Shown piece by piece: positions 593 through 58,530 of a DNA stretch of 64,000 nucleotides. This DNA is from Lethocerus indicus (Eukaryota; Arthropoda; Insecta; Hemiptera; Belostomatidae): NCBI GenBank assembly GCA_019843655.1, contig JACDQD010000004.1:1116001-1180000 (forward strand), read 5' to 3'. A program made the position numbers and the translations under genes. How positions within the stretch are numbered: the first letter of the stretch is position 1; each line of letters starts with the position of its first letter. The notes under the pieces are model-generated. The model made no database searches, was not told the DNA's origin, and saw only the letters and a list, made by a program, of their open reading frames with translations.

Positions 593-1020
593 GGGAATGC
601 TGTCCCGAGAGAGGGATGGAGCAGTGATGATTCCCGAACACTCTTAATTGTTGAAATATTTTCAACGGTGTGCGGTGAATTCGGATGAAATATTGAAAAA
701 ATACGGCTGTCGATTGTAGAATATGACACGCCTCTATTCCCTGCCATTTGAGGGCGAAAATCACATTCGGGAAATACCTGGAGAGTCATCGCGGGGCTCT
801 CCCGCTTTTGACAGTCGCCCCCTCGGGACTATTGCCACACTGTCCTCCTCGTTCAAATCTATACGTATATTTCAAATCCGATAAATCTTTGTCCTCTCGG
901 GACATACATCTATCCAATATTAATTACAGAAATCTGCAGTTACTTCATTTCAGCACAAAACTATTTTAAGTTTTCAGAACATTTACAATATATCAAGTAT
1001 AAATGTAATTCTTTTCATGC

Positions 1021-1425
1021 CGTAGGTTTGCGGTGTTTCTGTCTCCTCTCGCTCCTCTGATTTGGTCTTCCGCTAAACTCAAATAAGACAAACATAATTC
1101 CCCACTATAACAATATTCGTGTATATACAACTGACGAACACTAGTAGTGTATTCAGTTTAATGCGCTAAATCGTTTCAATGGTACGGCGCTCCTGATACT
1201 AGCCCGCAACAAAGATGTGTCTTACGTTTTAGTATCGGCGCCTTACAGTACAAGTGGACAGTGACACAGTGCAGTGAGGATGCCCCCGAAAAACGTCCAA
1301 AGTGGCGACAGTGACTAACACCGCTACTGAAGACGGCGAGCGAGCTGACAAGACCAGACCGGCGAGAGGGGACAGAAACACCAAAGAACCTACGGTATTC
1401 CAACCCCTCGCAGACCACAGAACAT
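1021..1425. mobile_element. Foldback-type non-autonomous element, copy A
   Basis: The left end (CGTAGGTTTGCGGTGTTTCT, then a block like GTCTCCTCTCGCTC) is the inverted counterpart of the right end (GACAGAAACACC ... CCTACGGTATTCCAACCCC). The left arm is cut short soon after the TTTGGTCTTCCGCTAAAC block. The centre carries GGTACGGCGCTCCTGATACT and TTTAGTATCGGCGCC, which fold on each other. Part of the centre (AAATAAGACAAACATAATTC) recurs inverted in the composite element at 4251-5915, so the two belong to one family. No coding capacity; a non-autonomous DNA element mobilised in trans is the simplest reading. Confidence 0.75.
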
Positions 1426-2512
1426 GATTCTTTTCATGTTCAACCCTCCGTTTGTACGTTTTTTTTGTAAATAATATGCGGCGCAAATTAAGAGGACGAC
1501 TGTTCCTCTAAGAATAATAGATATAGCAGGATATAAAATTTCACTGCCGTCTGTCTTGTGTACGCTATTCTTGCAAGAGGGAACGATGTAAATATTCGGC
1601 GGCCGATCGGACTGTTGAAGATGTTCAGTTCTTAATTATTCAGCCTAAAGTTTCCATTACACCGCCTATCGGTCCAGAGATACCGACCGCTCCGGCTTAC
1701 GCTTCGAACGGATGTTTACCCACCGTCTCGGGGGGAAGGCGTGCTTTTTCTCGGAAAGTGGCCGGGCCGTATTTATATATAAATAAAGTCGCTTGTCCGA
1801 AAGCATATATAGACTATGTTCGCAATTCGCTTGCGAAATAATTCTGCGCTATCCGGCCGTATTTCATGAAATATTTCGACCGATTCAAACCAGCCATACA
1901 GCGGTCCGAAGAGACTATATATAAATATGAGTAAGCGAAAAAGTTAACGGCGTAATTCCCTGGCGATGTTCTTTATCCGTCCGCGTTTCCATCGCTTGTT
2001 ACGAAGGAAATTTTTCTGCAAAATCAATTTTTTTCAGGTATCTGAACTTTATTACGGCCGCTAATGCCGTAATGGTTCAGCCGTGTAGGCGACGTCGCAT
2101 GAGTAAAGTTTATTTCAAATATTAACAGTCGGCGACCGGTTTCGTTTGTCTCTTTATTTGAAAATTGAAGGTGTTGTTTTTCAGGTGTTTTCACTCAGCA
2201 ATAATTGTACCGCATCGCCGGCCGGCCCCGGAGAATTTCGAAAGAATTAGAGACCTTCCCATTCGACCTAATTTCATTCCCCGGCTCGCCAATTTGTATG
2301 CAGGCTTTATTAACTTTTCATCAAGTTTACTACTTCTTACTTATGACGCCCTCTAGGCTTTCTTTCAATTTAATTTCAGCCGAATCGTACCCTGGGGGGG
2401 GGGGGTGTTCAGCGAAACATTGTTCAGTAAAAGAATTCTTCAGGAAAGTTTACTATTTTTATGATTTCCGCGTTGTTTAAAACTTGTAAGGGAAAAACAT
2501 AGGGTTTACCAA
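1426..2512. other. Unannotated interval
   Basis: AT-rich DNA with short GC-rich patches (for example 1670-1770) and several short TATATA-type tracts. A run of 12 G occurs at about 2394-2405. No gene, repeat arm or splice pair that I can support. Confidence 0.5.
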
Positions 2513-3838: not shown

Positions 3839-4250
3839 TCCATTTCCCGTTTTCCTTTAACGGGGAGAAACACCGGTGGAAGTATAACGAGCGATTCCCC
3901 AAGGGTTTGGACAGCGTTCAGAATTGCAAACGACAGCTCCTAATGTAATGTTCCCGCTTTTTTTCTCTCTCCCACCGCCATAAGTCGAATTAAATTTCAT
4001 GCCCGTCTCACCGAACGCCAGCCACATTCCCCGGCCCAATTCCCAATTTTTTTTCATTGTTTAAAGAACTTAATTCAGGCAAGCGTAAAAACGCAGAGTA
4101 GACGTATTTCATTACGTAATTGTACCGTAATTTTTCCTACGAATTGCTTTTAGATTTATTCGCAAAAAAGTTGTTAATCTACGTACATATATTTCTATAA
4201 CAAATATTACTTTCGCTAATTGTAAAATATCGCGGAATTATTTACATTTT
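3301..4250. other. Unannotated interval with one microsatellite
   Basis: Apart from the (GT)n tract at 3794-3834 this stretch is AT-rich DNA without a recognisable gene or element. The longer open frames across 3688-3943 are produced by the dinucleotide repeat itself. Confidence 0.5.
3794..3834. repeat. (GT)n microsatellite
   Basis: About 20 uninterrupted GT units. Confidence 0.95.
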
Positions 4251-4597
4251 CCGTAGATTTCGCCTATTTCTGTCTCATCTCGCTGGTTTGGTCTTCTGCT
4301 AGACCGGTTTCGGCTGCTCGCCATCTTCAGTAGCGGTGTTAGTCACTTTGGATGTTTTTCGGGCATCCAAACTGCACTGTGTCACTGTCACTTGTACTGT
4401 AAGGCGCTGATACTAAAACGTAAGACAGACCTTTGTTGCGGGCTAGTATTAGCTGCGCCGTACCATTGAAACTAGTAGCGCACTGTCACTATCACTTGTA
4501 CTGTGCTAGTTGTCGGTTTGTCGTATATATATATATATGTCTTCTTACTGTGTTTCTGGGGAATGTTGTTTGTCTTATTTGGGTTGGGAGGGATTTT

Positions 4598-4792
4598 CTT
4601 AATCGGCTTAACTATTTGTCGGATTATCGGTCAAATATATATCTGATCACACAACTGGTCACAACTATTAGGTCATGACTTCCAAATATATGACAGCAAA
4701 CCTATCTGGTATTGTCTATTTACGATCATAAAAGTCTTCCTGTCGATCCAAAACTTATTGAAAATAGTTTATTTTTTGTAATCTAGTTAATT
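4598..4792 (+). repeat. Conserved left flank of satellite array S1
   Basis: Non-tandem sequence including CACACAACTGGTCACAACTA, CTTCCAAATATATGACAGCA and TTTACGATCATAAAAG, ending in GTAATCTAGTTAATTGG just before the first monomer. The same sequence, with substitutions, precedes arrays S2 (about 18650-18729), S3 (about 24936-25129) and S4 (about 32745-32853). Its reuse at four loci shows that the array and this flank travel together. Confidence 0.8.
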
Positions 4793-5804
4793 GGTACAAG
4801 TGGACCAAACGAACTTTAGTTAAGTACATTTCCGCACCACACTCAGTGGGCGCTAGTTTATCGGTGCATGTGCACCAAACGAACTTTAGTTAAGTACATT
4901 TCCGCACCACACTCAGTGGGCGCTAGTTTATCGGTGCATGCACCAAACGAACTTTAGTTAAGTACATTTCCGCACCACACTCAGTGGGCGCTAGTTTATC
5001 GGTGCATGTGCACCAAACGAACTTTAGTTAAGTACATTTCCGCACCACACTCAGTGGGCGCTAGTTTATCGGTGCATGTGCACCAAACGAACTTTAGTTA
5101 AGTACATTTCCGCACCACACTCAGTGGGCGCTAGTCTATCGGTGCATGTGCACAAACGAACTTTAGTTAAGTACATTTCCGCACCACACTCAGTGGGCGC
5201 TAGTTTATCGGTGCAGAAACGAACTTTAGTTAAGTACATTTCCGCACCACACTCAGTGGGCGCTAGCTATCGGTGCCACTGGACCCAACGAACTTTAGTT
5301 AAGTACATTTCCGCACCACACTCAGTGGGCGCTAGTTTATCGGTGCCACTGGACCCAACGAACTTTAGTTAAGTACATTTCCGCACCACACTCAGTGGGC
5401 GCTAGTTTATCGGTGCATGTGCACCAAACGAACTTTAGTTAAGTACATTTCCGCACCACACTCAGTGGGCGCTAGTTTATCGGTGCATGTGCACCAAACG
5501 AACTTTAGTTAAGTACATTTCCGCACCACACTCAGGGGGGCGCTAGTTTATCGGTGCCACTGGACCCAACGAACTTTAGTTAAGTACATTTCCGCACCAC
5601 ACTCAGTGGGCGCTAGTCTATCGGTGCCACTGGACCAACGAACTTTAGTTAAGTACATTTCCGCACCACACTCAGTGGGCGCTAGTCTATCGGTGCGAGT
5701 GCACGCAACGAACTTTAGTTAAGTACATTTCCGCACCACACTCAGTGGGCGCTAGTTTATCGATGCAAGTGCACGCAACGAACTTTAGTTAAGTACAATT
5801 CCGC
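4793..5804 (+). repeat. Satellite array S1, about 15 x 70 bp
   Basis: Head-to-tail monomers of 70 bp, each containing AACGAACTTTAGTTAAGTAC, ATTTCCGCACCACACTCAG and TGGGCGCTAGTTTATCGG. Most monomers in this array end GGTGCATGTGCACC; a few near 5270-5390 and 5560-5640 carry CACTGGACC instead, as in the other arrays. Small length changes occur (3 to 6 bp deletions near 4940, 5150 and 5215). Each monomer has short dyads: ACTT/AAGT, CCAC/GTGG and GGTGCA/TGCACC. Open frames reading YISAPHSVGASL repeats are by-products of the tandem unit, not a protein gene. Confidence 0.95.
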
Positions 5805-5915
5805 GCGAGCAACCGAAACCGATCTAGTAAAAGACCAAACTAGCGAGAGGAGACAGAAAGATACGAAATCTCTGGTATTCCAACCCCTCGCAGACCACAA
5901 AACAGGTATTCTAAA

Positions 5916-8900
5916 TTTAAATTTTCGTTGCAGAGAATCAATAAGAATTTGAGAATTCGGACAAGACTATTTTCTGTTTTTTTTTCCATCAGACAGATCA
6001 AACAATACACCATGAAGCGTTTTCATTTGCGTTATTTTGATGTAATAATATATTGGTTGTAGCAGAGTGATTAAAATTATTAACCTATTTCAATGATGTC
6101 GCCATACCGCCTTGAGGAACGTCATTGATTGTTCCTCAATCGCTAACGATTACCAATTTCTTGCAAATGAATTAGATTGACTAATTTCCTAAGAGAATAT
6201 ATATATATTTATCATTGGTGACAATGCATTTTCTAAGGGGGTGATTTTCGGTCCAAATTTTTTTTTGACAGTCAACATTTAGGCGTGTCTAATATCGCTC
6301 GGGGAAATTTATAACTTGGGGTCAGAAGGGCATAGCCCGGTGTAGCCTAATCCTAGGACGGGGCGCTAGGACAGTCCTGAAGTTTGTTTTAATTGTGACC
6401 CCGTGAGCCGGTGATGCTCGGCCATAAATTTTTGCCGTTAAGAGCAAGCGGCCTTCTTCGCGCCCGGCTCAAACAAATGGGCCCTTCAGGCCCGCAAAGG
6501 GCCCGCCAGATGTTTACGCCGTATATTAAAAGCAACCCCTTCAACCCCTCCGCCCCTCTGTACCCCCCGCCACCACCCCTTTAAACGTGAACGCATCACC
6601 TCCGCCTCTAAAGATGATGATTTACCCGGTATAACTTACGGCGTTAAACCAACGACTGGCATACTAAGTACAGCCGTGTCCTGGGAAAGGAATAACGGGT
6701 GTTTCTCAGGGCTTCTAGAACCGCTACACACACATACATACATATACACTAACTTGGCCAGTAATGACAACATTTTTTTTAATAAGATCGTTCCGATAAT
6801 TGACCAATTCTTATTATCGAGGTAATTAAAATTGTAATCGATTTCGTATATCTCAATTTTTTGATAAACGTTTGCTTTATTAAAACTTTAAATTAGGAAC
6901 ACCAAAAATTGTGCTTGTAGTATTTATATATTACATACAAACTGTCATTATACCCTCACTGTACTTATTGTACTGTATTTTATAAAAATCTTAATGCATT
7001 TCTGAAATACCTAGTGCAGAAAAAAGTACAGCTGAAAGTATTCTTATTGTTTTCTCTCTTTTCCTTCGTATATCTGACCAGGCATACTTAAGATCGGTGC
7101 CTGTGTTTATATTTCGTTCGGGAGGTCAGTTTATTTTAGGAAACTCTCTCTTTGCATTGCGCACTGAAAAATGAGCCGCGTCTGCGCTCGGTTTTAAGTA
7201 TAGTTGAAAACTGGTTTAGAAGATTTGATCATTTCAACTGTCGATAGATTGAATATTAACTGTTAAATATAGTTCAGATAAATCGTATAGATCGGTATTC
7301 GAACCGGATATCGCAGTTTATATCGGTAGGAGAACTATGATTCATCGCGTACGAGAATTAGTGGGTGGGGGAGTATTAAACTAGCACAACTTAGTGCAGC
7401 ACTTGGAGAAGTTCTAATCGAAGCCGGGCGTCAAGCGCCGCCGATAACGGTCGAGATACAACCTTCCGATCCAACCTACAAAACGGCGGTGGAACGTTTC
7501 AATTGTATTCATAAAATTCCCCGGAAATGAAGTCATGTTCCGTTGGTTCGAGTGAAAAGTTAAAAGGATTAAGAAGTAGTCTTTTAGAACTCGTCGCAAA
7601 GTTGTAATCGGCTCTTTGACAGAACGAGGTACCGTCGGGGGCGCTGCGTATATTCGCGGGGACTTAAGGAACTGTATAATGAAGAAAGTTTCATAAAAGT
7701 ACCACCTCATCCCCCAGGACAAAAAAATTCAAGCGAATAAAAGGGGAGAAGTCGAAAACGTGTCCGGAATATACAGCGCATCTCCAACAAGATCGCAGCG
7801 TCAGCTTTGTAAAAAAAAAGGAAAGTATTTCTTGAAGATTCGTAAAGATTCGAGTTTCGTAATGTCGTACAAAAGATTAATTTATGTACTAACAGAATAG
7901 CGCGTTTAAACCTTATTATGAGAGAAACTATTGCCACAACAACGACCGTTACAGAAACTAACAGAAAGATAAAAAAGACGTACCTTCTCCAAGACCACAG
8001 TAAAATAATCAGAATAATCAAATGACGCAACGAATTATCAATATTAAATGTTGTGTCCGGTTGTTAACTGCAGCTTTCAGTCAAGATGTATAGGAATATA
8101 TTTTGTCTTATCAAAGATAGTATAATTAATTTTCGAATTCATACAGAGGCAAAAGGCGAACACGTTCGAGCCAGTAGGTTGCGCGCCCAAATTGTAGTAG
8201 ATACTAAACCAGCACGACACGCGTACGTACGGTTAGTATCACCCGGTTAGCCGGCGTACATTTATTAACATTAAATTAGTTTGAGGAATTAAGGTAGGTA
8301 TTTTGAGGAATTACAGACTCGTGAGAGCGGATGTTTGAAATTTCGGGAAAAAAACATCAAACATAACGTCCGGACTGAGTTAAATGTTTCAATTATTGTT
8401 GCTCGTAATAATCGTCCCTTCTGTATATTTCCCCAACGAGTTACCGCATTTTCTGTGTGGAGTGGGACATTTGAACGGAACAAAGTTCCCCCTCATTTTT
8501 CGTATTTCAAGCTTTTCTATACTCCTCAAGTGCACTGAATTATTAACCGCTTGCATTGCAAAACGTCCTAGTCTTCGGATAAAAATTCTATATTAGACAG
8601 CGGCCATCAGAGTCCGTAACAGTGGTACAGCTATTGCAGACATTTTCGGTTTGGGCTATAGCCGAATCTGAATGATTTAGACCCGGCAGCGCTCGTAACA
8701 GGGCGAAGGGGCGGCCGTAAAGGCGAACAAAGCCTTGAACAAGGTAACAAGGCTGTAACTCCTTCCGCTACATTATTACTTCTACTACAGAAAATATTCC
8801 CTATTTAATTTCAATGGAAAAATCTACAAATAAATATGTGAACGCTCGAATTCCGTCCGTTTCAACCTGTCGCCTTAAACCGTCAACTCTTTGCTCCGCT

Positions 8901-13807: not shown

Positions 13808-13830
13808 CCAGTAAAGCATTTGTATTTATT

Positions 13831-14275
13831 TTAAAATACCCGTTTTGTGGTCTGCGAGGGGGTCGGAATACCGTAGGTTTCGCGTGTGTTTCTGTCTCCT
13901 CCCGCTGGTCTGGTCTTATGCTAAACCCGTGGACAGATGGCTTCTCGCCGTCTTCAGTAGCGGTGTTAGTCACTTTCGGCGCTTTGGATGTTTTTTGGGC
14001 ATCCTCACTCGATCACTTACTAGTTACCATGGTACGGCGCTCCTAATACTAGCCCGCAACAAAGGTCTGTCTTACATTTTAGTATTAGCGCCTTACGTAC
14101 AGCGGCTTACAGTACATGTGACAGTGACAGTGCAGTGAGGATGCCCAGAAAACATCCAAAATTGCCAAAAGTGACTAACACCGCTAGTGAAGATGGCGAG
14201 CAGCCGAAACCGGTCTAGCAAAAGACCAAACCGGCAGCGAGAGGAGACAGAAACACAGGAAGCCTACGGTATTTA
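13831..14275. mobile_element. Foldback-type element, copy D (near complete)
   Basis: Both arms are present. Left: AATACCCGTTTTGTGGTCTG, GGAATACCGTAGGTTTCG, then the GTCTTCAGTAGCGGTGTTAG block and TTTTTTGGGCATCCTCACT. Centre: GGTACGGCGCTCCTAATACT, GCCCGCAACAAAGGTCTGTC, TTTTAGTATTAGCGCC. Right: GCAGTGAGGATGCCCAG, GTGACTAACACCGCTAGTGA, GCCGAAACCGGTCTAGCAAA, GAGGAGACAGAAACAC, CCTACGGTATT. The right arm lacks the outermost CCAACCCCTCGCAGACC block. The centre also folds on itself (GGCGCT..AATACTA against TAGTATTAGCGCC). No coding capacity. Confidence 0.85.
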
Positions 14276-18649: not shown

Positions 18650-18729
18650 ATTTCAAAAAAAGTTTCATAAAAGTTTTCCTGTTGATCCGAAATGTATTGA
18701 AAAAAAATTTTGTTTTTAGTAATCTAGAT
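18650..18729 (+). repeat. Left flank of array S2
   Basis: Shares TCATAAAAGTTTTCCTGTTG, ATCCGAAATGTATTGAAAA and TTTAGTAATCTAGATAATCG with the left flanks of S1, S3 and S4. Homology fades out before about 18650. Confidence 0.7.
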
Positions 18730-19305
18730 AATCGGTGCAAGTTCACCCAACGAACTTTAGTTAAGTACATTTCCGCACCACACTCAGTGGGCGCTAGTTA
18801 TCGGTACAACTGGACCCAACGAACTTTAGTTAAGTACATTTCCGCACCACCCTCAGTGGGCGCTAGTTATCTGTACAACTGGACCCAACGAACTTTAGTT
18901 AAGTACATTTCCGCACCACACTCAGGGGGCGCTAGTTTATCGGTGCAACTGGACCAAACGAACTTTAGTTAAGTACATTTCCGCACCACCCTCAGGGGGC
19001 GCTAGTTATCGGTGTAAACTGGACCAAACGTGAACTTTGTTTAAGTACATTTCCGCACCACCCTCAGGGGGGCGCTAGCTATCGGTGCAACTTGGACCAA
19101 ACGAACTTTAGTTAAGTACATTTCCGCACCACCCTCAGGGGGCGCTAGTTTATCGGTGCAACTGGACCCAACGAACTTTAGTTAAGTACATTTCCGCACC
19201 ACCCTCAGGGGGCGCTACTTTATCGGTGCAGCTGGACCCAACGAACTTTAGTTAAGTACATTTCCGCACCACCCTCAGGGGGCGCTAGTTAATCGGTGCA
19301 AGTGC
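18730..19305 (+). repeat. Satellite array S2, 8 x 70 bp
   Basis: Same monomer as S1 but with array-specific variants: the junction reads GTGCAACTGGACCCAACG, and the hairpin core is mostly CACCCTCAGGGGGCGC instead of CACACTCAGTGGGCGC. One monomer (about 19030) has GTGAACTTTGTTTAAG. The array passes straight into the nested hairpin at 19306-19354; no foldback right arm follows. Confidence 0.95.
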
Positions 19306-19354
19306 GCACTCGGTGTTGGTGTAGTTATTGGTCTACAACTCATTCACCGAGTGC
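19306..19354. repeat. Nested hairpin at the end of array S2
   Basis: GCACTCGGTG (19306-19315) pairs with CACCGAGTGC (19345-19354). Inside the loop TGTAG pairs with CTACA. It begins exactly where satellite homology ends. A 3' terminal hairpin is typical of Helitrons, but no Helitron terminus could be established here. Confidence 0.6.
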
Positions 19355-23386: not shown

Positions 23387-23863
23387 AGTTTAACATACCT
23401 GTTTTGTGGCCTGCGAAGGGGTTGGAATACCGTAGATTTCGTGTGTTTCTCTCTCCCCTCTCGCCGGTTTCGTCTTTTGCTAGACCGGTTTCGGCCGCTC
23501 GCCATCTTCAGTAGTTGTGTTAGTCACTTTTGGCACTTTGTATGTTTTGTGGGCATCCTCACTGCGCTCTCACTTGATCACTTGTACTTGCGGTGGTTGT
23601 AGTGTATTCAGTTTAACGCCATACTGCAATAGTTTCAATGGTACGGCGCTCCTAATACTAGCCCGCAACAAAGGTCTGTCTTACAGTTTAGTATTAGCGC
23701 CTTACAGTACAAGTGACAGTGACAGTGCAGTGAGGATGCCGAAAAACATCCAAAGTGCCAAAGTGACTAAACACCGCTACTGAAGACGGCGAGCAGCCGA
23801 AACCGGTCTAGCAAAAGGGCAAACCGGCGGAGGGGAGACAGAAACACACGAAATCTACGGTAT
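23387..23863. mobile_element. Foldback-type element, copy F (most complete)
   Basis: Left arm starts TTTAACATACCTGTTTTGTG, then GGTTGGAATACCGTAGATTT, TGCTAGACCGGTTTCGGCC and CCATCTTCAGTAGTTGTGTT. The central spacer has GTGTATTCAGTTTAACGCC, a segment shared with copy A. The central fold is GGTACGGCGCTCCTAATACT against TTTAGTATTAGCGCC. Right arm: GCAGTGAGGATGCCGAAAAA, CACCGCTACTGAAGACGGCG, AGCCGAAACCGGTCTAGCAA, GGAGACAGAAACACACGAAA and TCTACGGTATAA. The outer block of the right arm is missing. Arms are roughly 160-200 bp. No coding sequence. Confidence 0.85.
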
Positions 23864-24935
23864 AATTATATACATACTGCCTCTGAAATGTGAGAACGGC
23901 CGATTAAAAAATTCCCCCCTACAGGAGAAGCCAGAAGACCTTTTGAAGCGTCTCTTCTCCCTTTTGTCCCACGTCCTTTTGGGATTGACAGTCCCAAACC
24001 TATTCCTATTTCACGCCCTCTTCCCTCTTTGTTTGTTTACCGCCAATTCCGTTTGTCACAGGCCGCAGTGGGTGGGAAATTTCGATGAATCCACGCGTTT
24101 TCCGAAATAAAGTTTCCTGGTTATATCGCGACCGGAATATTTTAAGGGCGTGAGCCGAAGGGCTGTCGTTTGGAGGAATCGACACGAGGTGCATGTCTGA
24201 GGTGTCTTTTTCTTTCTCGGATATAAATTGAATATTCGTTTTCAGAAAACGAATAAACTCCTAAAGTGGAATTCATTTAAATTAGATAAAGACTAAAATT
24301 AGATTCCAAAACAGTAGGGCTATCGGAGGGTATATTTCAAACCGATATTGGAGGGGCTCTATTCCGTTTCATCCTGGATTTGTCTGGAATTTTTGATATC
24401 GGAAACTTTTCTTATTTTACGGCGTCTGAAGTTATTCGATCTCCGATGGGGGAGGGGGCGCGGATTGTAAGTCAGAGGTGTGATGCGAACTGTAGTACCT
24501 GAGGGGCTATCTGTCATTCCTGATCTTTCTCCCTTTCACGGTAAAACAATTCTTTTGTACTGTACAGCCCTTAGGCCCGCCTTTATCCGCCGTTCACGAG
24601 CCCTTGATTCCGGGCCGGCTTCTCTTTTTTCTCTTCCCGGCCTTTACGAGGGCAAGACCAGCACCGTTGCCTAAATTACGAACGCTTGTATTCAAACCTA
24701 ACTAAACCGAATCCACAAAAAAAATTAGAACAATCTCCTGGATAATTTTAAAAGTAACATTCCTCTATTTGCCTCCCACAATGACAAGTACATTCTCCAG
24801 TCCATCAGTTTAACAACGTTTTCTACGAAATGTTACTGATGATGACGAAAAGTCTAACTCCACCATCACATCACTAAATTATGCTTCATTTTTTATCATT
24901 TTAGGAGACTAATCGGTTTCTTTCATAACCCATAC
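23864..24935. other. Unannotated interval
   Basis: No gene or element recognised. A G-rich patch occurs near 24448-24465. Confidence 0.4.
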
Positions 24936-25129
24936 TTAATCGGCTTAATCGGACCTAATCGGCTTAAGTCTTTGTCAGATCGTCGATCACACAACTGGTC
25001 ACGACTATTAGGTTCTGACTTCCAAATATATGACGGTAAACTTATCTGATATTGTGTATTTACGATCATAAAAGTTTTCCTGTTGATCCAAAATTTATTG
25101 ATAACAATTTTGTTTTTAGTAACCCAGTT
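24936..25129 (+). repeat. Left flank of array S3
   Basis: Begins with short TTAATCGG repeats, then CACACAACTGGTCACGACTA, CTTCCAAATATATGACGGTA, TTTACGATCATAAAAGTTTT and TTTAGTAACCCAGTTAATTG. Nearly the same as 4598-4792, the longest flank homology among the arrays. No foldback left arm precedes it, so this locus is truncated. Confidence 0.8.
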
Positions 25130-25657
25130 AATTGGTACAAGTGGACCCAACGAACTTTAGTTAATTACATTTCCGCATCACCCTGAAGGGGGCGCTAGTT
25201 TATCGGTGCAAGTGGACCGAACGAACTTTAGTTAAGTACATTTCCGCATCACCCTGAAGGGGCGCTAGTTTATCGGTGCAAGTGGACCCAACGAACTTTA
25301 GTTAAGTACATTTCCGCATCACCCTGAAGGGGGCGCTAGTTTATCGCTGCAAGTGGACCCAACGAACTTTAGTTAAGTACATTTCCGCATCACCCTGAAG
25401 GGGCGCTAGTTTATCGCTGCAAGTGGACCCAACGAACTTTAGTTAAGTACATTTCCGCATCACCCTGAAGGGGGCGCTAGTTTATCGCTGCAAGTGGACC
25501 AAACGAACTTTAGTTAAGTACATTTCCGCATCACCCTGAAGGGGCGCTAGTTTATCGCTGCAAGTGGACCCAACGAACTTTAGTTAAGTACATTTCCGCA
25601 CCACCCTCAGGGGGGCGCTAGAGTCTTGGTGCAACTGGACCAAACGAACTTTAGTTT
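25130..25657 (+). repeat. Satellite array S3, about 8 x 70 bp
   Basis: Monomers carry CGCATCACCCTGAAGGGG, a variant confined to this array, and the junction GCAAGTGGACCCAACG. The last one or two monomers revert to CACCACCCTCAGGGG, the S2/S4 type. The array ends in a broken monomer (ACTTTAGTTTCGTTTACC) without a foldback right arm. Confidence 0.95.
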
Positions 25658-27086
25658 CGTTTACCTGCTTACTCTCTGCCATCGATATCGATGCATAAAG
25701 TTGCGGTTTTTAGACCGCCTTTATGAAAAAGGTCGAGTCCATTTCTTTCTGAAAGAAGGCTTGTTTTTCATAGAATGTAAATAAAAGATACAAAAGAGTA
25801 TGGGATATATAGGCGGAGCATATATGACACGCTAGCACCCGGGGCACGCTCACTGTGCGATTACATCTGGTCATAAAGAACCGGGTGGGCGAGTCAGGTT
25901 TAATTAATTAGACTATCTCGAACTTGATGTTACGTTATATCGTAGCTCGGTAACACAAAATTTAATGCCATCGCCGTCGTAGTATTTTAATTAACAGAAG
26001 GGAAGTACTAAAGGACTGAATGGGGAAACACGATATAATATAATTACAGCTTATAATATTAATTCATTTGTGATGTATTGCTAAGAATTATATTTAGAAC
26101 AGGTGACAATTTTACATTTTACGGAATTTTAAATATGACATAAAGTACATGCGGTACTCATTAATTATCCTGCATTCATTTTAGAGATAGAAAAAGGCCC
26201 TTTCCGAGAACTCTTCTCCTTCATTTTTCTCCTCCGTGCGCCTTAATGAGAAATCGATTATGGCCCTCCCAATCTAATCGGTTCCTTAAGTATCCCTCGA
26301 AATATTCGACTTTATATTACAAAAAATTCAGTTGAATATTTTACTTTATTTCATATTCCATGTATGTACTTCGCTTATGGGCGAATGGTCGCATATGGTC
26401 CGCTACAAAAAAAACTTAAATGAGAAAATACCCAAGTGATTAGCTGATTTATAATAACAATTTCCTGGCGCTAAGGGTGACTATAAAGGAAAGGAGTTGT
26501 ACGTGTTTTATTGGCCCAAGTTGAAAAGAGTTTTAATCTGAGAGCGAGGGCTGTTTCGCTTTCAATAGAAGTAAATCTGCGGCTGAGGTTAGTTCAAGAG
26601 GAGAGTCGGCAAGAAATAATGCCCCAGTCCCTTCCGCTGGTGTTGGCCCTTTTTTTCACTTCCTTTCCGGGCCCTTGATCCGGAGACAAGTGGTTACTCC
26701 GCGTCCACTTCCCCATCCCACACTTTCACAGCATTTCGGGCTTCGACCTGACTTTCACTCGAAGGGGAATCGAAAAAATTGAATCGAAATATCCTCAATT
26801 TCTGCCTGAAAATGATCGGGGCCGTCGATTAAACGACCGGCGATGGCTATAACGATACGCGATTAGACCTAATAAATTCTTCCGATTACTCGGCCACCTT
26901 GTTGTCCCCGAACGGAATTTAGTGTTCGACTCCTCGTACAAGAAATATAGTTCGTCCGAGGTCACGCTTCAGCGGTATCGTACGACAAAGAGAGAAGGAC
27001 ACAGTTTACGAAGTTATAGTTTATCCGTGATTAGATCACGATTACGATCGATATCTCGTTTTCTAATAGGATATCTCGTAACAAAC
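25658..27086. other. Unannotated interval
   Basis: AT-rich DNA, no gene or element recognised. Begins with a short ATCGATATCGAT palindrome at about 25682. Confidence 0.4.
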
Positions 27087-27088
27087 TA

Positions 27089-27294
27089 TTGGGTTGGCAA
27101 CTTAACAATTGCGGATTCTTCTCTTTCTTTGGGCGTGTGCACCCTTATTATGTCGTGCAGTTTTCAGTACGGCACGTAATAAACATTTCAGAATACTCTC
27201 TATAGGTTTGAAGGTGCGTAAACGTGCGTAAAAATACAATTAACGCCATCTCCGTCTAGCGACGAAACCCGCAATGACTTAGTTGCCGACCAGA
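27089..27294 (+). mobile_element. Mariner (irritans-type) miniature, copy 1
   Basis: The left end TTGGGTTGGCAACTTAACAA with TTGCGGATTC and the right end GCAATGACTTAGTTGCCGAC are the terminal inverted repeats known for irritans-type mariners. TA flanks both ends (27087-27088 and 27295-27296). The interior shares TGCACCCTTATTATGTCGTG, CGTAATAAACATTTCAGAAT and ACGCCATCTCCGTCTAGCG with copy 2. About 206 bp, no transposase frame. Confidence 0.8.
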
Positions 27295-27940
27295 TACGAC
27301 TTGTAGGGGAACATAATTCGAAGAGTGGACTGAAATTAGACTGGACGGAAGCAATTTTTGATTGGAGTTTATGCGAATAATCCCGTGTATTCGGACACCT
27401 AATTAAACGAGAAGCGTCGCCTCTCTGCCGTCTGTTGATTCCGGCCGCTGCGGTGAAACGGTTTAATATCGGCATAGTTTTCGTAGCAGGGAAAATTAAA
27501 CGAAAGCGCCTCGTCGTATACCGGATATTATAGCTGGGGCCCTTTTGCTCTCCGCGATATTCGACCGAAATTCAAATAACAATTCTAAATAAATGGTCCT
27601 TTTCATTTCGATTCGTTTTGCCAGCAGAGCAATGCTGAAATCGCCGGGAAAAATTAGTTTAGCTGCTCTCTATTCATCCATCGTCTGGACCATTTTCAAT
27701 ACGTGATCGGTTTTGAATTGTCAACGATAAACAAACCATCAAATTTAAAAACTTAACATTCAGTATTCAAAAGTATTTAAATTCAGACACGGATTATTGA
27801 AACTAATTCACCGTCGTCACCATTCTAGGAGGAATATCTTGGGAATACCAATAAGCGTAGTTTCTATTATCTTTAAAACTCCCCATAATCGTAATGAATT
27901 GTCGCTCTTTTTAAATCGGCTTTCTCATAATAATAATTCT
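27295..27940. other. Unannotated interval
   Basis: Nothing recognised between the mariner miniature and foldback copy G. Confidence 0.4.
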
Positions 27941-28194: not shown

Positions 28195-30118
28195 CTGCAT
28201 TTTTCTTCATGACTCTTCAATGTTATTTTCCGCTTATTTTAAATTGGCTAAAGACAGACTGATAATTACTTATTGGGATGAATCGTCCCAACGGGGGGGG
28301 GGGGAGCCTTAAAATCTATCTCGCCGACGGTCCGTCAGATAACGTCCGATTTTGATGAATTTCCCCCGAATAGATATTTCTTCGCCGAGGGTTCGGGGCC
28401 CCGACCTTCTGCCGAATAGCGCCATGAATTTCATGGTTGATGGATTCATGAATATATTCCCCCCGGAGGAAGACCCTCGGCCCCATCATATTGAACTGGT
28501 TATGTAATTTTTGAATATCTATTGGAATAAATATTGTAGTCGGAACAGGTTGAGACGGGTGCCATAAAGTATAGAGGGCAGCATTTTTTACGTCGCTCGC
28601 TCTGTATTTGTTGCTTATTTTCTCGAGATTATCGCTTTATTAATCGAGAAATTTTATTAATGATATAGAAATACATTAAGAAACTTTTATCTAAATTGCA
28701 CCGATGGTACGGCTGATTAAAATGTTAATAAGCGCAAATAAGAGCGGAAATAACATTCACATAAGATAACAAAAATAAAACATTAATACGTATTTATATG
28801 ATTTTTAACTCTATAAGTCGTCAAAACATATGCCAATATCTGTTTGTTTCTCTTTTTAAACATCGTGTAATTTTACCATACTTAAATTAATATCTTCATA
28901 TATATTTGTTTCGAGTCCACGACTATTTTTAATATAATTTTCTCTCTCCACTAGGTCATTTGGCCCTATTCTACCTATTTGGAAAGAATAAATCATTTAA
29001 TGCACGCATTGATTCAAACATATATACTACTATATTATTTAGGGAATAAATATTTGCTATAACGTGTAATAGGATTCCTTCCAATGCCTCAGAGAATCCT
29101 AAAGGACTCGCATGATCATTTGTTTCATCCGTTTAACACATAATACGTATATATAGACCGTCAGTGGACAAAACATTTGCCGGGTCATTATTCCGGGCCA
29201 TCGTGGCCGACATAATTAAATTCGAAAACGCCCCCGCGCCGAGCAACCGCAGGAAATCTGGGTCGGGTCAGATTTTTAAACGACCAGAATAAACTTTTCA
29301 GAATGGAATAAATCACGTAGAAGGGCTTTGGACGTACAAAGAATGGCTTTTCGGAATTGGGCCAAAAGGGTGGTGGGGTTTGGGGGGGGGTGGGGGTAAG
29401 AGATTTGGAAGGCGAAAAATGATTTGGAGGAAATCAAAAGGAGGAAAATCTGGCGGGCCGCACAAACCGATTAATAATTCATTACCAGTCCCCTCATTAA
29501 TATCCTTTCCGATTGATCTCTTTGCCACTTCAATACCTCCTGGAAATCTGTTGAGGTTTTGTTGGGGGCGAACCGATCCCCTGTCTTTGTCCACAAAAAA
29601 CGCACTGTATTAGTGAAACGGCGGAAGTTCGATTATGGAAAAAGTTAACAGAAGGGATATTTTCTGATGGGAAAGGTCTTAACATTTATACGACACATTT
29701 TATTACAACCAAAAAGAAAGCTTCTAATACTAATAATTCAACAATTTGGCGATATTCCATCGTAATGTTGGAAAATGCCTCTTAGCCGCGATATTCAATA
29801 TGAACTCTACAGATGAAAATAACCCAAACTGATATCATCTTTGAGAGCAGAGTGACGATAATTCGTCTAATATTTAATCATATTAGTACAGTTGGGATAT
29901 ATAGAGGCCAATATATGAGGAAGAAAGTAATTGGGCTGACGGAGGAGGGCTTATTTAATACGCATTTCTTTTCGGTCTCCTCAGAGCGCCGGCTTATGTC
30001 AGGTCCGTTCCGCCGAATAATTCTATCCTGACAGTAATTGCATTGTAATAGCTATTATCTGCCTTTAGGGGAAAAACACGGAGCGAACAGTAGTTTGTGT
30101 TCATGTTATCTGCCGAAA
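28195..30118. other. Unannotated interval
   Basis: AT-rich with a G-run at 28292-28303 and a G-rich patch at 29370-29400. A CCATGAA T TTCATGG palindrome lies at about 28421. No gene or element supported. Confidence 0.4.
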
Positions 30119-30120
30119 TA

Positions 30121-30315
30121 TTTGGTTGGCAACTAAATAATTGCGGATTCTTCTCACCTTTGGGGGGGGTTCGCACCCTTATGTCGTGCATTTTTTTTGT
30201 ATGCGTGTAATAAACATTTCAGAATACTACAGGTTTGAAAATGTAAACATGCGTTAAAATACAAATACATCTCCGTCTAGCGGCTAGACCCGCAATGACT
30301 TAGTTGCCGACCCGA
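30121..30315 (+). mobile_element. Mariner (irritans-type) miniature, copy 2
   Basis: Left end TTTGGTTGGCAACTAAATAA, right end AATGACTTAGTTGCCGACCC, with TA on both sides (30119-30120 and 30316-30317). The interior is colinear with copy 1 (GCACCCTTATGTCGTGCA, GTAATAAACATTTCAGAATA, ACATCTCCGTCTAGCGGC) with small indels. No transposase frame. Confidence 0.8.
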
Positions 30316-30317
30316 TA

Positions 30318-32744
30318 CAATGTCAAATACCAATATATTTCAAATTGGCTGTCTAATAGTGAGGACTTAAGTCGTACGGGCTATCAGTCGGACATTAGTC
30401 GACTGTTGTAGGAATTATGTGGGACGTGAGCCGACGGCGGTGTATGTTGCCGGCGCCGAAACGGACTTGAGCCGCGTGACCAGCACGTCACGCCCAGTCA
30501 TATTTAATGACACCGATTAATCATCCCCCGTTAACGCCAATATCGAAATGGCGGTCGCTAGGATGAGCGGCCCCGATTTGGTGAGCAAAGTGGGAGGCAG
30601 AAACTTTCCCCTGCTGAAACTTTTTTTACGTCCGTTTTATCGTTCATTTTCCAATCCCACGACGTATGATGAAACTAACGAAAATTTCACTAGGCCCAAT
30701 GTGCTCACTGCCAACAGGGTTTTACGGCTGTTGAAATTCGAAAAAGATATTGAAAACAATGACAAAATTCGTCGGATTTCTCGGACGATTCGAGATAACG
30801 GTGAGCCAGATGTGGCTATGGTTCAGAGGTTGTGTTAACACTAATAGGAACGCATAATATAATGACGGCGCCGCCGCCGTGATGCGGGATCGAATATCGG
30901 CGGTGCCGCCGTATATAATCTGCATATACAACAGCTACAGGTTTGAGCGACGGGAAATGTAATACGATTGAGCCCCAAACACGAAGAGATATGGGCCCGC
31001 CCTTCTACATACAACCCGATATACCGACCACCTATCTTGTTCCCCTAACTATATTTCAAACCCGGTCATAATTTCACAGCTTTTGTCCAGATCGCAATCT
31101 TCCTTCAAGATCAGTAAATTAATTACGGCTGAATTTCTCGATTCCGAGAAATTAGAATGGGCGAATTGCGTCGATAAATCATTTTCTCTACATTGCAGAC
31201 AATGCGGAGTAGAATATAAGTCTAAACTACGATATTATGTGTTATTCGGCACAGATGTACACGAATATTAGTATTAGAAATGCAAACTAAAATTTTTAAA
31301 AAAATCTGCGCTCATAGAATGCCCATTTTTCACTTATTACTTCTAAGGATATTCACCCTAATATAAATTTAAAGTAATTGGTTAAAAATGTGTAAATATT
31401 TATTGATTCAATAGCTTGGAGTCCACACAGTACCTCCTGAGATCATAAACCTGAATTGGTACTATTAACATTTTCAGGAATGAGAAAGTCCTCGATCCAA
31501 ACCGTGTATTGAAATTGATCCTATTCCTGGCAATTTTCTTCTTTCTCCTCTCGCATTTCATGAATACATCCTCCGCGTCTTTTTCACGGGAACGCTGATC
31601 TCGGTAATTTATTCCAGGGAACGCCTTAAAAGCTCTAAATCCAATCCTCCGGACTGCAAAAATAAATTCCTTCCGTCCTGACCGTGGCGTGGTGAAGGCG
31701 CCCGAATACCCGGGCTTAGGGCCCTTCTATTCTTGTGGGGCTCGAGAAAAAAAAAAAAACAAAGAAGACAATTGATCTTGGCGTGAGGAGCCGGGAGGTC
31801 GTAAACACGCGAGGGTAAGTTAAAGTTTCAGTATTTTTTTTAACCGAACCTTGTCCCAGGTCTTGACCCCCCCCCGGGTGACACAACCCCTTGGGATCAG
31901 TCTCGGGATCAGGGTCGCCAAACCCCCCCCGCCCGCCGCCCCAACCTCACTCTGTTAACCCTGGCTCAGACAAAGCGGCCCTAGGCGTAATACAGGGGCT
32001 AAGCCACCCTTATTCAAGGCCGACCTATAGGTCCCCGCCCTCCACCCAACCCTCCGGCCCTACAGGACGTCAAACTGAGAGAAGCGGTGGGATAAGGGAC
32101 GGGATAAAAAAAAGGAGACTCCCTGTTATCCCGAGACCCACCCAGGACCAGACTGGTGAAATTAGTACTGTGATTTTCTACCCCACCCCCCCACCACCGT
32201 GTTTGGTCCATTAGATTAGTTACTTCAGTCAGAATTCGTGGGTACCTACATTATTTCGTAGTATTATTCTCCACTAGCTAATTTGTTCTTATGTGAAACC
32301 GGTTTCGGCTTGATGCCGCACTAAATTACTCTTATATTCGCAATGCATCGTGCGATTATTAAACCGCAACCTTTCTAGTAGAAAAGAGTTCAATTACCGA
32401 GTTACAAATACAGTAATTATATGTTGATATGTTGTCCAAATGTATATAACGCAAAATATAATTCAATTCAGCCACCGTGTTTCGTATTATAAGAGTTTAC
32501 TCCCGGTTAATTTATGTTCAGGGAGAAGTCCGCGGCGCACTCTCCGACTGCATCACTCCAGGAACTGCTCCAGCTAATTAGTGGCCTGGAACTCTAGCTG
32601 GAAATAAGTCCAGCGGCGGCAGAATTCCACCAGTTTTCCGCTTAAATCCGAACGGCGAAATTAATCCTTACGGGATATATATTTTAAATAAATTGTAACT
32701 CTAGCGTCCCGGCCGAAAACCTGACGAAGCTCTCATATTCTTCT
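30318..32744. other. Unannotated interval
   Basis: No gene recognised. Contains a GCC-rich dyad at 30868-30912 and a C-rich low-complexity tract at 31867-32200 that creates opposing proline/glycine-rich open frames. A short piece at about 32294-32313 (GAAACCGGTTTCGGCT) recalls the foldback arm but is too short to call. Confidence 0.4.
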
Positions 32745-32853
32745 AATATATGAAAGGAAACCTATCTGGCATTGTGTATTTACGATCATATAAGTTTTCC
32801 TGGTGGTCCAAAATTTATTGAAAAAAGTTAATTTTTAGTAATCTAGTTAATTA
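32745..32853 (+). repeat. Left flank of array S4
   Basis: AATATATGAAAGGAAACCTA, TTGTGTATTTACGATCATAT, AAGTTTTCCTGG and TTTAGTAATCTAGTTAATTA match the left flanks of S1 and S3. Confidence 0.75.
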
Positions 32854-33728
32854 GTTCCGCACCACACTAAGGGGGGGGGGCTAGTTTATCGGTGCAACTG
32901 GACCAAACGAACTTTAGTTAAGTACATTTCCGCACCACACTCAGGGGGCGCTAGTTTATCGGTGCAACTGGACCAAACGAACTTTAGTTAAGTACATTTC
33001 CGCACCACACTCAGGGGGCGCTAGTTTATCGGTGCAACTGGACCAAACGAACTTTAGTTAAGTACATTTCCGCACCACACTCAGGGGGCGCTAGTTTATC
33101 GGTGCACTGGACCAAACGAACTTTAGTTAAGTACATTTCCGCACCACCCTCAGGGGGGCGCTAGTTTATCGGTGCCACTGGTCCAAACGAACTTTAGTTA
33201 AGTACATTTCCGCACACAAACTCCAGGGGGGCGTTAGTTCATCGGTGCAACTGGACCAAACGAACTTTAGTTAAGTACATTTCCGCACCACACTCAGGGG
33301 CGCTAGTTTATCGGTGCAACTGGACCAAACGAACTTTAGTTAAGTACATTTCCGCACCACACTCAGTGGGCGCTAGTTTATCGGTGCAACTGGACCAAAC
33401 GAACTTTAGTTAAGTACATTTCCGCACCACACTCAGGGGGCGCTAGTTTATCGGTGCAACTGGACCAAACGAACTTTAGTTAAGTACATTTCCGCACCAC
33501 ACTCAGGGGGCGCTAGTTTATCGGTGCAACTGGACCAAACGAACTTTAGTTAAGTACATTTCCGCACCACACTCAGGGGGGCGCTAGTTTATCGGTGCAA
33601 CTGGACCAAACGAACTTTAGTTAAGTACATTTCCGCACCACACTCAGGGGGCGCTAGTTTATCGGTGCAACTGGACCAAACGAACTTTAGTTAAGTACAT
33701 TTCCGCACCACACTCAGGGGGGCGCTAG
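32854..33728 (+). repeat. Satellite array S4, about 12 x 70 bp
   Basis: Starts with a truncated monomer, then 12 very uniform units with the junction GTGCAACTGGACCAAACG and core CACACTCAGGGGGCGC. One unit near 33212 is altered (CACACAAACTCCAGG). The array breaks off within GGCGCTAG and continues directly into a foldback right end. Confidence 0.95.
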
Positions 33729-33790
33729 AAGCACACGAAATCTACGTTATACCAACCCCTCGCAGACCACAAAACAGGTATTCTAAACTA
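33729..33790. mobile_element. Foldback right terminus after array S4
   Basis: AAGCACACGAAATCTACGTT, ATACCAACCCCTCGCAGACC and AAAACAGGTATTCTAAAC, the outer right arm seen in copies C and M. Only the last 60 bp remain. The satellite joins the arm at a different internal point than at 5805, so array ends differ between loci. Confidence 0.85.
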
Positions 33791-34392: not shown

Positions 34393-41400
<7,008 letters not shown>

Positions 41401-43079: not shown

Positions 43080-43577
43080 TTTTTTTTAACTGTTTTATTT
43101 TTGCACAATCGACCTATACAGTTACATGATACGTGTGTTTATTTCCGCGTGTTAGTCCCGACAAAGAAACTACCCAGTGATGGCGATTTTGACACGATTT
43201 AACTACTGCCCGAGGTGATCTCTGGGCCAGTGGGGTTTAAACCGTCGTGGTGGGGATAGTGGATGGGCAGAAGAGGAAAGGGACTGAACGAGTGGATTGG
43301 GATGAGGAGAAAGGCGGGAGTGGAACTTGGGGAACCGGGATTTTGCGACTTCATCGACTGTCGGTATGTCGAGGTCATTATGGATTGTTCGGTTAGAAAC
43401 ATACCCGGAGGGAGCATTAAGTATGGTGCGAAGGACTTTTGATTGGAATCTCTGGATGCGAGCGATGTCGGATGTCTCGGTGGAACCCCATAGCTCAATT
43501 CCATATGTCCGTGTCAATTTCAGTATTGCTTTGCATATTGTTAGTTTGTTGCTTAAGGTCAATTTCGATGTCAACTA
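43080..43577 (-). pseudogene. Jockey-like LINE 3' end (reverse transcriptase C-terminus and 3' UTR)
   Basis: The minus-strand frame 43203-43574 encodes the C-terminal part of a Jockey-clade ORF2: SKLTLSNKLTICKAILKL, RTYGIELWGSTETSDIARI, QRFQSKVLRTILNAPSGYV, SNRTIHNDLDIPTVDEV, then a proline-rich tail ending in a stop. The YGIxLWG and QRFQSKxLRxIxNAP motifs are typical of these elements. The 3' UTR runs to 43080 and ends, on the minus strand, GTCGATTGTGCAAAAATAAA with an A-rich tail. Endonuclease and the reverse transcriptase catalytic core are missing, so it is a 5'-truncated, inactive insertion. It lies just downstream of the candidate exon, in opposite orientation. Confidence 0.85.
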
Positions 43578-48185: not shown

Positions 48186-48574
48186 ACTGTAGGTTCGTGA
48201 TGTTTCTGTCTCCTCCGGTTTCGGCTGCTCGCCATCTTCAGTAGCGGTGTTAGTCACTGTCAGCACTTTGGATGTTTTTTGGGCATCCTCACTGTATTGT
48301 CACTTTCACAAGCACTTTAAGGCGCTATACGTAAAAGGCGCTAATACTAAAATGTAAGACAGACCTTTGTTGCGGGTTAGCATGTGAAAGTGACAGTACA
48401 GTGAGGATGCCCAAAAAACATCCAAAGTGCTGACAGTGACTAACACCGCTACCGAAGATGGCGAGCAGCCGAAACCGGTCTAGCAAAAGACCAAACCAGC
48501 GAGAGGAGACAGAAACATCACGAACCTACAGTATTCCAACCCCTCGCAGACCACAAAACAGGTGTATTAAAATA
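48186..48574. mobile_element. Foldback-type element, copy M
   Basis: Left arm from CTGTAGGTTCGTGATGTTTC to GCATCCTCACTGTATTGTCA, missing its outer block and the TGGTTTGGTCTTTTGCTAGA block. The centre is rearranged: AAGGCGCTAATACTAAAATG and ACCTTTGTTGCGGGTTAGCA are inverted relative to copies D and F. The right arm is complete: CAGTGAGGATGCCCAAAAAA, CACCGCTACCGAAGATGGCG, CCGAAACCGGTCTAGCAAAA, CCAACCCCTCGCAGACCACA, AAACAGGTGTATT. No coding capacity; the frame at 48458 is a translation of the arm. Confidence 0.85.
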
Positions 48575-51940: not shown

Positions 51941-52202
51941 GCCACCCTCAGGGGGGCGCTAGCGTCGCGGTGCACGTGCACCCAACAAACTTTAGTTAAA
52001 AACGATAATTTAAGCGTATATGAACGAGATTTTTGGCCTCTTTATATTTTTAAGTGTACTGTGACAGTGCAGTGAGGATGCCGGAAAAACATCCAAAGTG
52101 TCAAAGTGACTAATACCGCTACTGAAGATGTCGAGCAGCGGAAATCGGTCTAGCAAAAGACCAAACCACCGAGAGGAGGCAGAAACACACGATATCTACG
52201 GT
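51941..52202. mobile_element. Deleted composite element: one satellite monomer plus foldback right arm (copy N)
   Basis: GCCACCCTCAGGGGGGCGCT, then GGTGCACGTGCACCCAAC and AACTTTAGTTAAAAACG form a single partial 70-bp monomer (51941-51999). After about 55 bp of spacer, the right arm follows: AAGTGTACTGTGACAGTGCA, GTGAGGATGCCGGAAAAACA, CCGCTACTGAAGATGTCGAG, GGTCTAGCAAAAGACCAAAC, GCAGAAACACACGATATCTA. Same order as in the composite at 4251-5915 but with the array reduced to one unit. Confidence 0.8.
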
Positions 52203-55691: not shown

Positions 55692-55764
55692 TGGAGGCGC
55701 CGGGCATCGATCCCGGTACCTCTCGCATGCTAAGCGAGCGCTCTACCATCTGAGCTACGCCCCC
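55692..55764 (-). tRNA. tRNA-Ala (AGC), copy 1
   Basis: Full 73-nt cloverleaf on the minus strand: acceptor GGGGGCG/CGCCTCC with A73, D arm GCTC/GAGC, anticodon stem CTCGC/GCGAG with loop TTAGCAT (anticodon AGC, alanine), T arm CCGGG/CCCGG with loop ATCGATG. The G3:U70 pair, the alanine identity element, is present. No intron. A TTTT about 9 nt downstream can serve as a Pol III terminator. In the upstream flank (plus 55765-55910), a GCCCCACCACAAGGGG hairpin motif and a TACGGCGCTGATACTAACC motif recur in every unit. Confidence 0.96.
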
Positions 55765-56275
55765 TGATTGGCAAATTGTACCACAATAAAACAGGAATAG
55801 TGAAATTGGGCCGGTGAAAGTCAAGATTGGCCGGCTCTAAGGCCCCTTGTGGTGGGGCAGACACCGAGGAGTGGCCTGCGTGGCCGGTTAGTATCAGCGC
55901 CGTACAACCGAACGAACTGTGCTCCAATTAACTTGTTGAACATATTATATAGTGAAGTACAACAATTAGTATACTAATTATATAATAAATAAATAGTTTA
56001 ATAATGCGGAATTGAGGGCGGAATTCACTTTTTAAAGAGCTATGTTGAATACATTCAATATTGATTTTGTATTAATCACTGCAATTTCAGAGAATAGATA
56101 TCCCCTCAATAGCCTTAGTAGTGTACGCTTTCACCATTTTATATCCTGTAATTATCAATATCTAGCCATGAAAAGAGATACCGGTAGGTTTATGTTTATT
56201 GACTCCATAAGAATATAGCTTACATCGTGATCTCGCAAATTTTTTCCGGTATCACTGGACCAAAAGTGGATTGAT

Positions 56276-56348
56276 TGGAGGCGCCGGGCATCGATCCCGG
56301 TACCTCTCGCATGCTAAGCGAGCGCTCTACCATCTGAGCTACGCCCCC
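56276..56348 (-). tRNA. tRNA-Ala (AGC), copy 2
   Basis: Identical 73-nt tRNA to copy 1, with the same downstream AATCCACTTTTGGTCC terminator context. The upstream flank (plus 56349-56515) differs from copy 1 by the insert CCTCCAACGGTTCAGTGGAA, which is shared only with copy 4. Confidence 0.96.
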
Positions 56349-56882
56349 TGATTGGCAAATTGTACCATAAAAAAATTGAATAGTAAAATTGGGCCGGTGA
56401 AAGTCAAGATTGGCCGGCTCTAAGGCCCCTTGTGGTGGGGCGGACCTCCAACGGTTCAGTGGAATGGCCTGCGTGCCGGGTTAGTATCAGCGCCGTACAA
56501 CCGAACGAAATGTGCTCCAACTAACTTGTTCAACAAATATATAATAAACTATAACAATTAGTATACTAATTATATAATAAATAAATAGTTTAATAAGTGG
56601 AATTGAGGACGCCTTACTCCATTACATGGTATGCTTTCACCATTCTATATCTCATATCTAACAATTTCTGATCGGTTTGGTATAAAGAGACACTGGTCCA
56701 GAAATGTTTTTTTTAACATATTTAATATTGACATCGTGTATCCAAAATTGACGGATTTTTAGGGATACTTTTCCTCCATACGCTTAGCAACTTTCTCATT
56801 TTTCTTGTATACCTATATTTTCTGGATCGTCTCGGTCCAATCGCATTTTTTTATTGTACTTCGGGACCAAAATGCAGGTGTC

Positions 56883-56955
56883 TGGAGGCGCCGGGCATCG
56901 ATCCCGGTACCTCTCGCATGCTAAGCGAGCGCTCTACCATCTGAGCTACGCCCCC
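56883..56955 (-). tRNA. tRNA-Ala (AGC), copy 3
   Basis: Identical 73-nt tRNA. Downstream flank diverges from copies 1 and 2 (the plus strand just before it reads GACCAAAATGCAGGTGTC), but a TTTTGGTCC run is kept about 13 nt after the gene. Upstream flank (56956-57110) retains the GGCCGGTGAAAGTCAAGATT, hairpin and TACGGCGCTGATACTAACCC motifs. Direct repeat of copies 1 and 2. Confidence 0.96.
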
Positions 56956-57114
56956 ATTTTATCAAATTGTACCAGTTAAAAACTAGAATAGTGAAATTGG
57001 GCCGGTGAAAGTCAAGATTGAACCGGCTCTAAGGCCCTTGTGGTGGGGCAGACACCGAGGAGTGGCCTGCGTGGCGGGTTAGTATCAGCGCCGTACAATT
57101 TGTTGAACAAATGT

Positions 57115-58369: not shown

Positions 58370-58530
58370 TTCGGTTGTACGGCGCTGATACTAACCCGGC
58401 ACGCAGGGCATTCCACTGAACCGTTGGAGGTCCGCCCCACCACAAGGGGCCTTAGAGCCGGCCAATCTTGACTTTCACCGGCCCAATTTCACAATTAATG
58501 TTGCTTAACTGTAATAAAAATTGATAAAAT

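Follow-up and report, generated by a model that had tools for sequence, protein, structure and literature searches.

The spread of short satellite arrays through genomes is an open question. In the excerpts of the papers compared here, satellites are carried either by Helentrons (PMC7492417) or by a DNA transposon of the foldback type (PMC4079207). The question is raised again by a 64-kb stretch of Lethocerus indicus DNA (the window; 42% GC), where a tandem array of a 70-bp repeat lies between two inverted arms: what carried the array there? Our evidence base is this one window, with four arrays and five two-armed copies of the arm family. An array within Penelope-like inverted ends hints at one way in which arrays get carried around a genome, and a template-jumping retroelement, if truly the carrier, would be a further route with checkable marks in its tail, duplication, and chimeric joints.

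Arrays of the 70-bp repeat and their left flank

The repeat forms four arrays and one single monomer, all on the plus strand. Copy numbers were obtained with Tandem Repeats Finder (TRF) and by counting a conserved box within the unit.

4597-4782, plus strand: array-common left flank, longest copy (BLAST and alignment)
4783-5804, plus strand: 70-bp tandem array of 15 units (TRF, 14.8 copies; box count, 15)
18662-19305, plus strand: flank and 8-unit array at 18731-19301, no adjoining arm (TRF, 8.1; box count, 8)
24955-25656, plus strand: flank and 7-unit array at 25138-25656, no adjoining arm (TRF, 7.4; box count, 7)
32735-33728, plus strand: flank and 12-unit array at 32855-33728, first unit partly missing (TRF, 12.4; box count, 12)
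51942-51999, plus strand: lone diverged monomer (BLAST self-comparison)

Between loci, array plus flank gives a BLAST E-value printed as 0.0, and the arms described below give values as low as 7e-85. The first-pass annotation of this DNA held that copy number changes, as is indeed seen from the differing unit counts among copies with a common left junction, and that the same left flank precedes all four arrays. The flank is upstream of 4/4 arrays, but it is of unequal length, with BLAST matches to the first copy starting at 24956, 32745, and 18665, equivalent to 4600, 4685, and 4726, respectively. Aligned flank segments differ at 12/69, 24/178, 19/118, 8/70, 9/66, and 22/118 positions. In three copies the flank/array joint falls at the identical monomer position, and the 33-kb copy misses part of its first unit. 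In contrast, each of the four arrays ends on the right at its own point of the monomer, and no right flank is common to the copies. As the joint is constant on the left and the edges are variable on the right, flank and array together form a dispersed unit whose copies share the left joint but no right end.

Unit identity is mostly greater within an array (0.925 to 0.955) than between arrays (0.85 to 0.935), and two of the arrays also repeat internally over greater lengths (141 and 422 bp), a pattern that would fit local expansion through unequal exchange. When 26 monomer bases were compared with bacterial/archaeal contigs and with viral contigs, there were 0 matches in either set. The monomer contains a small inverted repeat (CACTCAGTG, CCCTCAGGG), for which compensatory change was dismissed because the second array and the fourth often have unpaired intermediates. 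By eye, a hairpin with a 10-bp stem (GCACTCGGTG / CACCGAGTGC) is apparent at 19311-19350, immediately right of the 18.7-kb array.

Arms, tail, and hammerhead motif

The first array was claimed to be framed by inverted arms that belong to a dispersed family. This is borne out at 4783-5804: positions 4255-4321 and 5805-5871 are inverted repeats with 86.6% identity over 67 bp, and self-comparison places both in a dispersed family. The window contains five two-armed copies (at 1.0, 4.3-5.9, 13.8, 23.4, and 48.2 kb); arms that stand alone, or fragments of arms, occur at 2.5, 16.1, 28.0, 33.7, 52.1, and 53.9 kb. An alignment of 15 arm sequences was made, leaving out the 53.9-kb fragment. We call the tail-less end of an arm B and the tail-bearing end A.

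4251-4482, minus strand: left arm, antisense, tail-less (B end), Penelope-like terminal repeat
4298-4334, minus strand: minimal hammerhead-like motif of the left arm, with both stems (I and II)
5805-5914, plus strand: right arm, sense, 5'-truncated, with AC-rich tail (A end), Penelope-like terminal repeat
33729-33787, plus strand: end part of a sense arm with tail, joined directly to the 33-kb array
52052-52202, plus strand: tail-less sense arm, 45 to 50 bp beyond the single monomer
1020-1427, plus strand: two-armed copy without array, perfect 11-bp duplication
13830-14273, minus strand: two-armed copy without array, duplication of 13 of 14
23391-23866, minus strand: two-armed copy without array, no duplication found
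48188-48574, plus strand: two-armed copy without array, no duplication found

An AC-rich tail is present on exactly one arm in all five two-armed copies, being slightly shorter in the 1.0-kb copy. In each of the five, the B end lies near ...CTACGGTAT, and the A end, past the tail, at about ...CAGGTATNNTAAA. The arm order at 4251-5914, antisense/B followed by sense/A, matches that of the other two-armed copies. Among shuffled sequences, 0/100 are as stable as the hairpin of the 23.4-kb copy (z = -23.7).

The association of arms with arrays is uneven. Both arms accompany one of the four arrays (the first), a single arm end abuts another (33 kb), and no arm adjoins the remaining two (18.7 and 25.1 kb). 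It had been proposed that array or monomer is again followed by the right arm at 33729 and 51999. At 33729 this is so, with only ~60 bp of the tail-bearing end; at 51999 a gap of ~45 to 50 bp intervenes and the arm is tail-less. The arrays ending at 5804 and 33728 both run without a gap into a tail-bearing arm end, the orientation being the same in each case, and no array units are found beyond either arm end. The joint at 5804 is in mid-monomer, and that at 33728 is at a different monomer point.

Read in the sense direction, the arms contain CTGAAGA, a 3-bp stem II, GAAAC-NN-GTC, and a 4-bp stem I. Minimal type I hammerheads have their elements laid out in this order. A strict search for the layout returned four matches in the window, all in arms, versus 0.005 expected per random window (200 first-order Markov windows), the four related copies counting as one motif. 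The nine pairs are formed in 91.6% of cells, compared to 13 to 39% with the partner slid. Covariation of the pairs was not detected in the arm alignment, with shuffles equaling or exceeding the observed value in 500/500 cases. At gathering scores, Rfam reports no hammerhead in the whole window, only four tRNAs. When 4001-6100 was scanned permissively, the sole match had an E-value of 5.3, far under its gathering score.

The ATG of GATGGC starts right after core residue G8, such that motif and ATG overlap. In the 3/15 arm rows that could be measured to both ends, these lie 77 to 84 and 114 to 122 nt beyond the ATG-overlapping motif, which leaves a tail of 37 to 38 bp; one of the three has ACG in place of ATG. 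In a fourth row, with an internal deletion, only the B end is reached, at 51 nt. A separate hammerhead-like motif on the minus strand at 37055 has an ATG at the equivalent place. Only 2/4 of its stem I pairs form, the self-comparison links it to none of the arms, and it was set aside.

PLEs, the Penelope-like retroelements, contain hammerhead motifs (PMC7761336, PMC7229834), and these are minimal forms (PMC7761336). In the available excerpt on Poseidon, a PLE of Anolis, C3 and G8 precede the start codon, initiation occurs 111 to 118 nt into the open reading frame (ORF), and a 30- to 40-bp tail lies between two start sites (PMC11167929). The arms resemble Poseidon in the hammerhead over the ORF start, the tail size, the initiation distance, and AT-rich targets. 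Both the hammerhead layout and a one-sided tail of 30 to 40 bp are found here. Poseidon, however, is autonomous and has a protein (PMC11167929), whereas here only terminal repeats were found. Metazoan retrozymes share tandem repeats, type I hammerheads, and a proposed use of PLE machinery, but carry the hammerhead within the tandem unit (PMC7229834, PMC7761336). Here it is in the arms, and a search of the 70-bp units gave no hammerhead match in any array.

The hammerhead motif overlapping an ATG, the head-to-head arms, and the AC-rich tail on one arm only point to Penelope-like arms. We consider it probable, with some reserve, that the foldback family represents the terminal repeats (pLTRs) of a Penelope-like retroelement, inverted and placed head to head, and that at 4251-5914 such repeats frame foreign DNA, flank and 70-bp array, as one insertion.

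Origin of the unit at 4251-5914

Unit ends were taken from the family termini, and each candidate duplication was compared with AT-matched random pairs.

4240-4250: left candidate target-site duplication copy, ATTTACATTTT
4480-4585: unit interior, in which 4480-4504 repeats an arm stretch and 4546-4585 matches the interior of the 1.0-kb copy
5915-5925: right candidate target-site duplication copy, ATTTAAATTTT

The unit at 4251-5914 is bracketed by an 11-bp duplication in which one position is mismatched; the next base agrees as well, for a score of 11 of 12, which 11/3,000 random pairs attain. Among the other two-armed copies, the perfect 11-bp duplication at 1.0 kb is equaled by 0/3,000 pairs and the 13-of-14 duplication at 13.8 kb by 7/3,000, and none is found at 23.4 and 48.2 kb (1,489/3,000 and 3,000/3,000 pairs as high), making 3/5 in all. 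The same copies stand out when the bounds are shifted slightly and the null is not AT matched. No significant duplication surrounds the 33-kb array (523/3,000), and none was found around the 18.7- and 25.1-kb arrays (no match; a best score that 9% of random pairs also attain).

As the near-perfect 11-bp duplication brackets the whole unit, arms and array probably entered together, as one insertion. This agrees with the first-pass annotation in treating arms and array as one element, and it weighs against the outcome named there as refuting, in which the arms inserted independently next to an older array. The bounds given, 4251-5915, were nearly exact, with family termini and duplication placing the end at 5914. 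The duplication is also compatible with a later nested insertion of flank and array into an arm unit. Positions 4546-4585 have 80% identity over 40 bp with 1115-1076 in the interior of the 1.0-kb copy (E = 4.6e-5). This piece and the arm repeat at 4480-4504 are of the kind that template jumping would leave.

The likeness extends to the Penelope elements of Adineta vaga, which have inverted pLTRs, a 31-bp tail on one of them, and duplications of 8 to 10 bp, and in which unrelated non-coding DNA has been captured between solo pLTRs, again with duplications (PMC3846280). The cargo here differs in being a tandem array plus flank that also exists at armless loci. In a search of open-licence titles and the beginnings of abstracts, no satellite array between PLE pLTRs is described among the matches listed, a result of little evidential weight.

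Given the anatomy, hammerhead motif, one-sided tail, and candidate duplication observed directly, PLE machinery acting in trans most likely captured flank and array between two terminal repeats. A PLE endonuclease would make a staggered cut at an AT-rich site, and reverse transcription would start at both ends in the AC-rich 3' part of PLE RNA, at one end from the outer start site (A) and at the opposite end from the inner one (B). The middle would then be filled by template jumps to an RNA bearing flank and array, repair would leave the duplication, and array length would be altered afterwards, locally, for example by unequal exchange. Several observations count against this reading: the differing arm/array joints, the two of four arrays without arms, the two of five two-armed copies without duplications, the lack of a significant duplication at the 33-kb array, the lack of an Rfam hammerhead and of covariation, and the lack of a PLE gene in the ORFs scanned. 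Neither a PLE reverse transcriptase nor an endonuclease was found in the 10 of 29 window ORFs scanned, where Pfam gave one match, below the cut-off (E = 0.06).

Some of these observations would also be expected if flank and array formed a repeat that moves or duplicates in its own right and came to lie in or beside PLE copies, with the PLE not being the carrier. The flank occurs without an arm at two of four arrays, the arm/array joints differ, and the left flank/array joint is common where the right ends are not. Such a repeat would less readily account for the two arrays that directly abut tail-bearing arm ends in the same orientation, for the absence of units past those ends, or for the lack of an own duplication around the 18.7- and 25.1-kb arrays, and we regard it as unlikely, though less so than the other alternatives. 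Irregular joints, and a candidate duplication that is mismatched and lies in AT-rich DNA, could instead reflect a chance junction, in which ordinary rearrangement or repair joined the pieces and the array never transposed. That the arm order is the one seen in other two-armed copies, and that the duplication abuts the family termini, renders chance highly improbable. Helitrons are not known to make target-site duplications, and the candidate duplication bracketing the first unit weighs against a non-autonomous element of the Helentron type that carries a satellite at its core. The left flank with tandem core does recall the oyster Helentron Cg_HINE, with its short satellite-like arrays and constant left flank (PMC7492417), and the short hairpin seen by eye right of the 18.7-kb array would suit such an element. 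However, in the excerpt available the oyster elements have common right flanks as well and no pLTR arms, whereas here the left flank is common and the right is not; a Helentron origin is accordingly a very slim prospect.

The first-pass annotation favored a non-autonomous DNA element with foldback arms and a tandem-repeat core; a comparable foldback transposon is Tetris of Drosophila virilis. Long inverted arms, internal tandem repeats, and the absence of visible coding capacity all fit, and Tetris shares inverted arms, tandem repeats variable in number, and duplications of 8 to 10 bp, similar in size to those here (PMC4079207). Tetris, however, carries 220-bp repeats (TIR-220) within its terminal inverted repeats, and its excerpt mentions neither a one-sided tail nor a hammerhead. 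In the window the array is outside the arms and lies between them, once and in one orientation. The ends are also unequal, with a tail on one side only, and contain a hammerhead motif with ATG. We therefore find a foldback transposon improbable, and the designation "non-autonomous DNA element" is not supported, as the arms bear the marks of Penelope-like terminal repeats in comparison with the excerpts on Poseidon and Adineta (PMC11167929, PMC3846280).

The further proposal that the element seeds satellite DNA across the genome finds little support, with two of the four arrays in the window lacking an arm. Because of these two, flank plus array may move by other means when armless, or may have lost its arms.

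A conserved box within the unit

Part of the repeat is far less variable than the remainder, a separate and testable sign of selection. The 28-bp box ACGAACTTTAGTTAAGTACATTTCCGCA is exact in 39/42 units, and the other three differ at 1, 2, and 4 positions. Over 38 full units, there are 5 substitutions in 1,064 box positions versus 129 in 1,596 positions of the rest of the unit. Between locus consensus units, 0/28 box positions are variable, compared to 9/42 in the rest of the unit (Fisher P = 0.009) and 18/67 four-way flank positions (P = 0.001), P values that are affected by the box bounds having been picked after inspection of the data. The rest of the unit and the flank do not differ in variability (P = 0.65). 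When variable columns were shuffled, an equally long invariant run arose in 868/100,000 trials.

A near-exact box, next to a remainder of the unit that differs among loci to roughly the extent of the flank, suggests selection acting on the box, and the sequence comparison makes constraint likely, short of proof. Priming, chromatin, and protein binding are all candidate roles. A broader possibility, which we put forward tentatively and hold doubtful, is that PLE machinery in trans spreads the satellite via tail-joined array RNA and that the box is a selected binding or priming site keeping the satellite mobile or functional. Array RNA ending in a PLE tail, or joined to one by a template jump, would then be copied into new sites.

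A second conserved part of the unit reads ...AG(G/T)GGGCGCTA; as a loose pattern it has 30 matches in the window, all in the four arrays and all on the plus strand. It appears similar to the CTCF core.

Other repeats are present in the window. Four tRNA-Ala (AGC) genes at 55692-58604 lie in duplicated segments of ~220 to 570 bp that are ~79 to 95% alike and partly inverted. Related stretches within ORFs at 43203-43574 (minus strand) and 63495-63755 share 75% identity over 296 bp and have no Pfam match; these ORFs recall the end of a non-LTR retrotransposon protein. Finally, 27084-27297 and 30116-30318 form a dispersed repeat pair, 80% identical over 217 bp and unrelated to the array and arm families.
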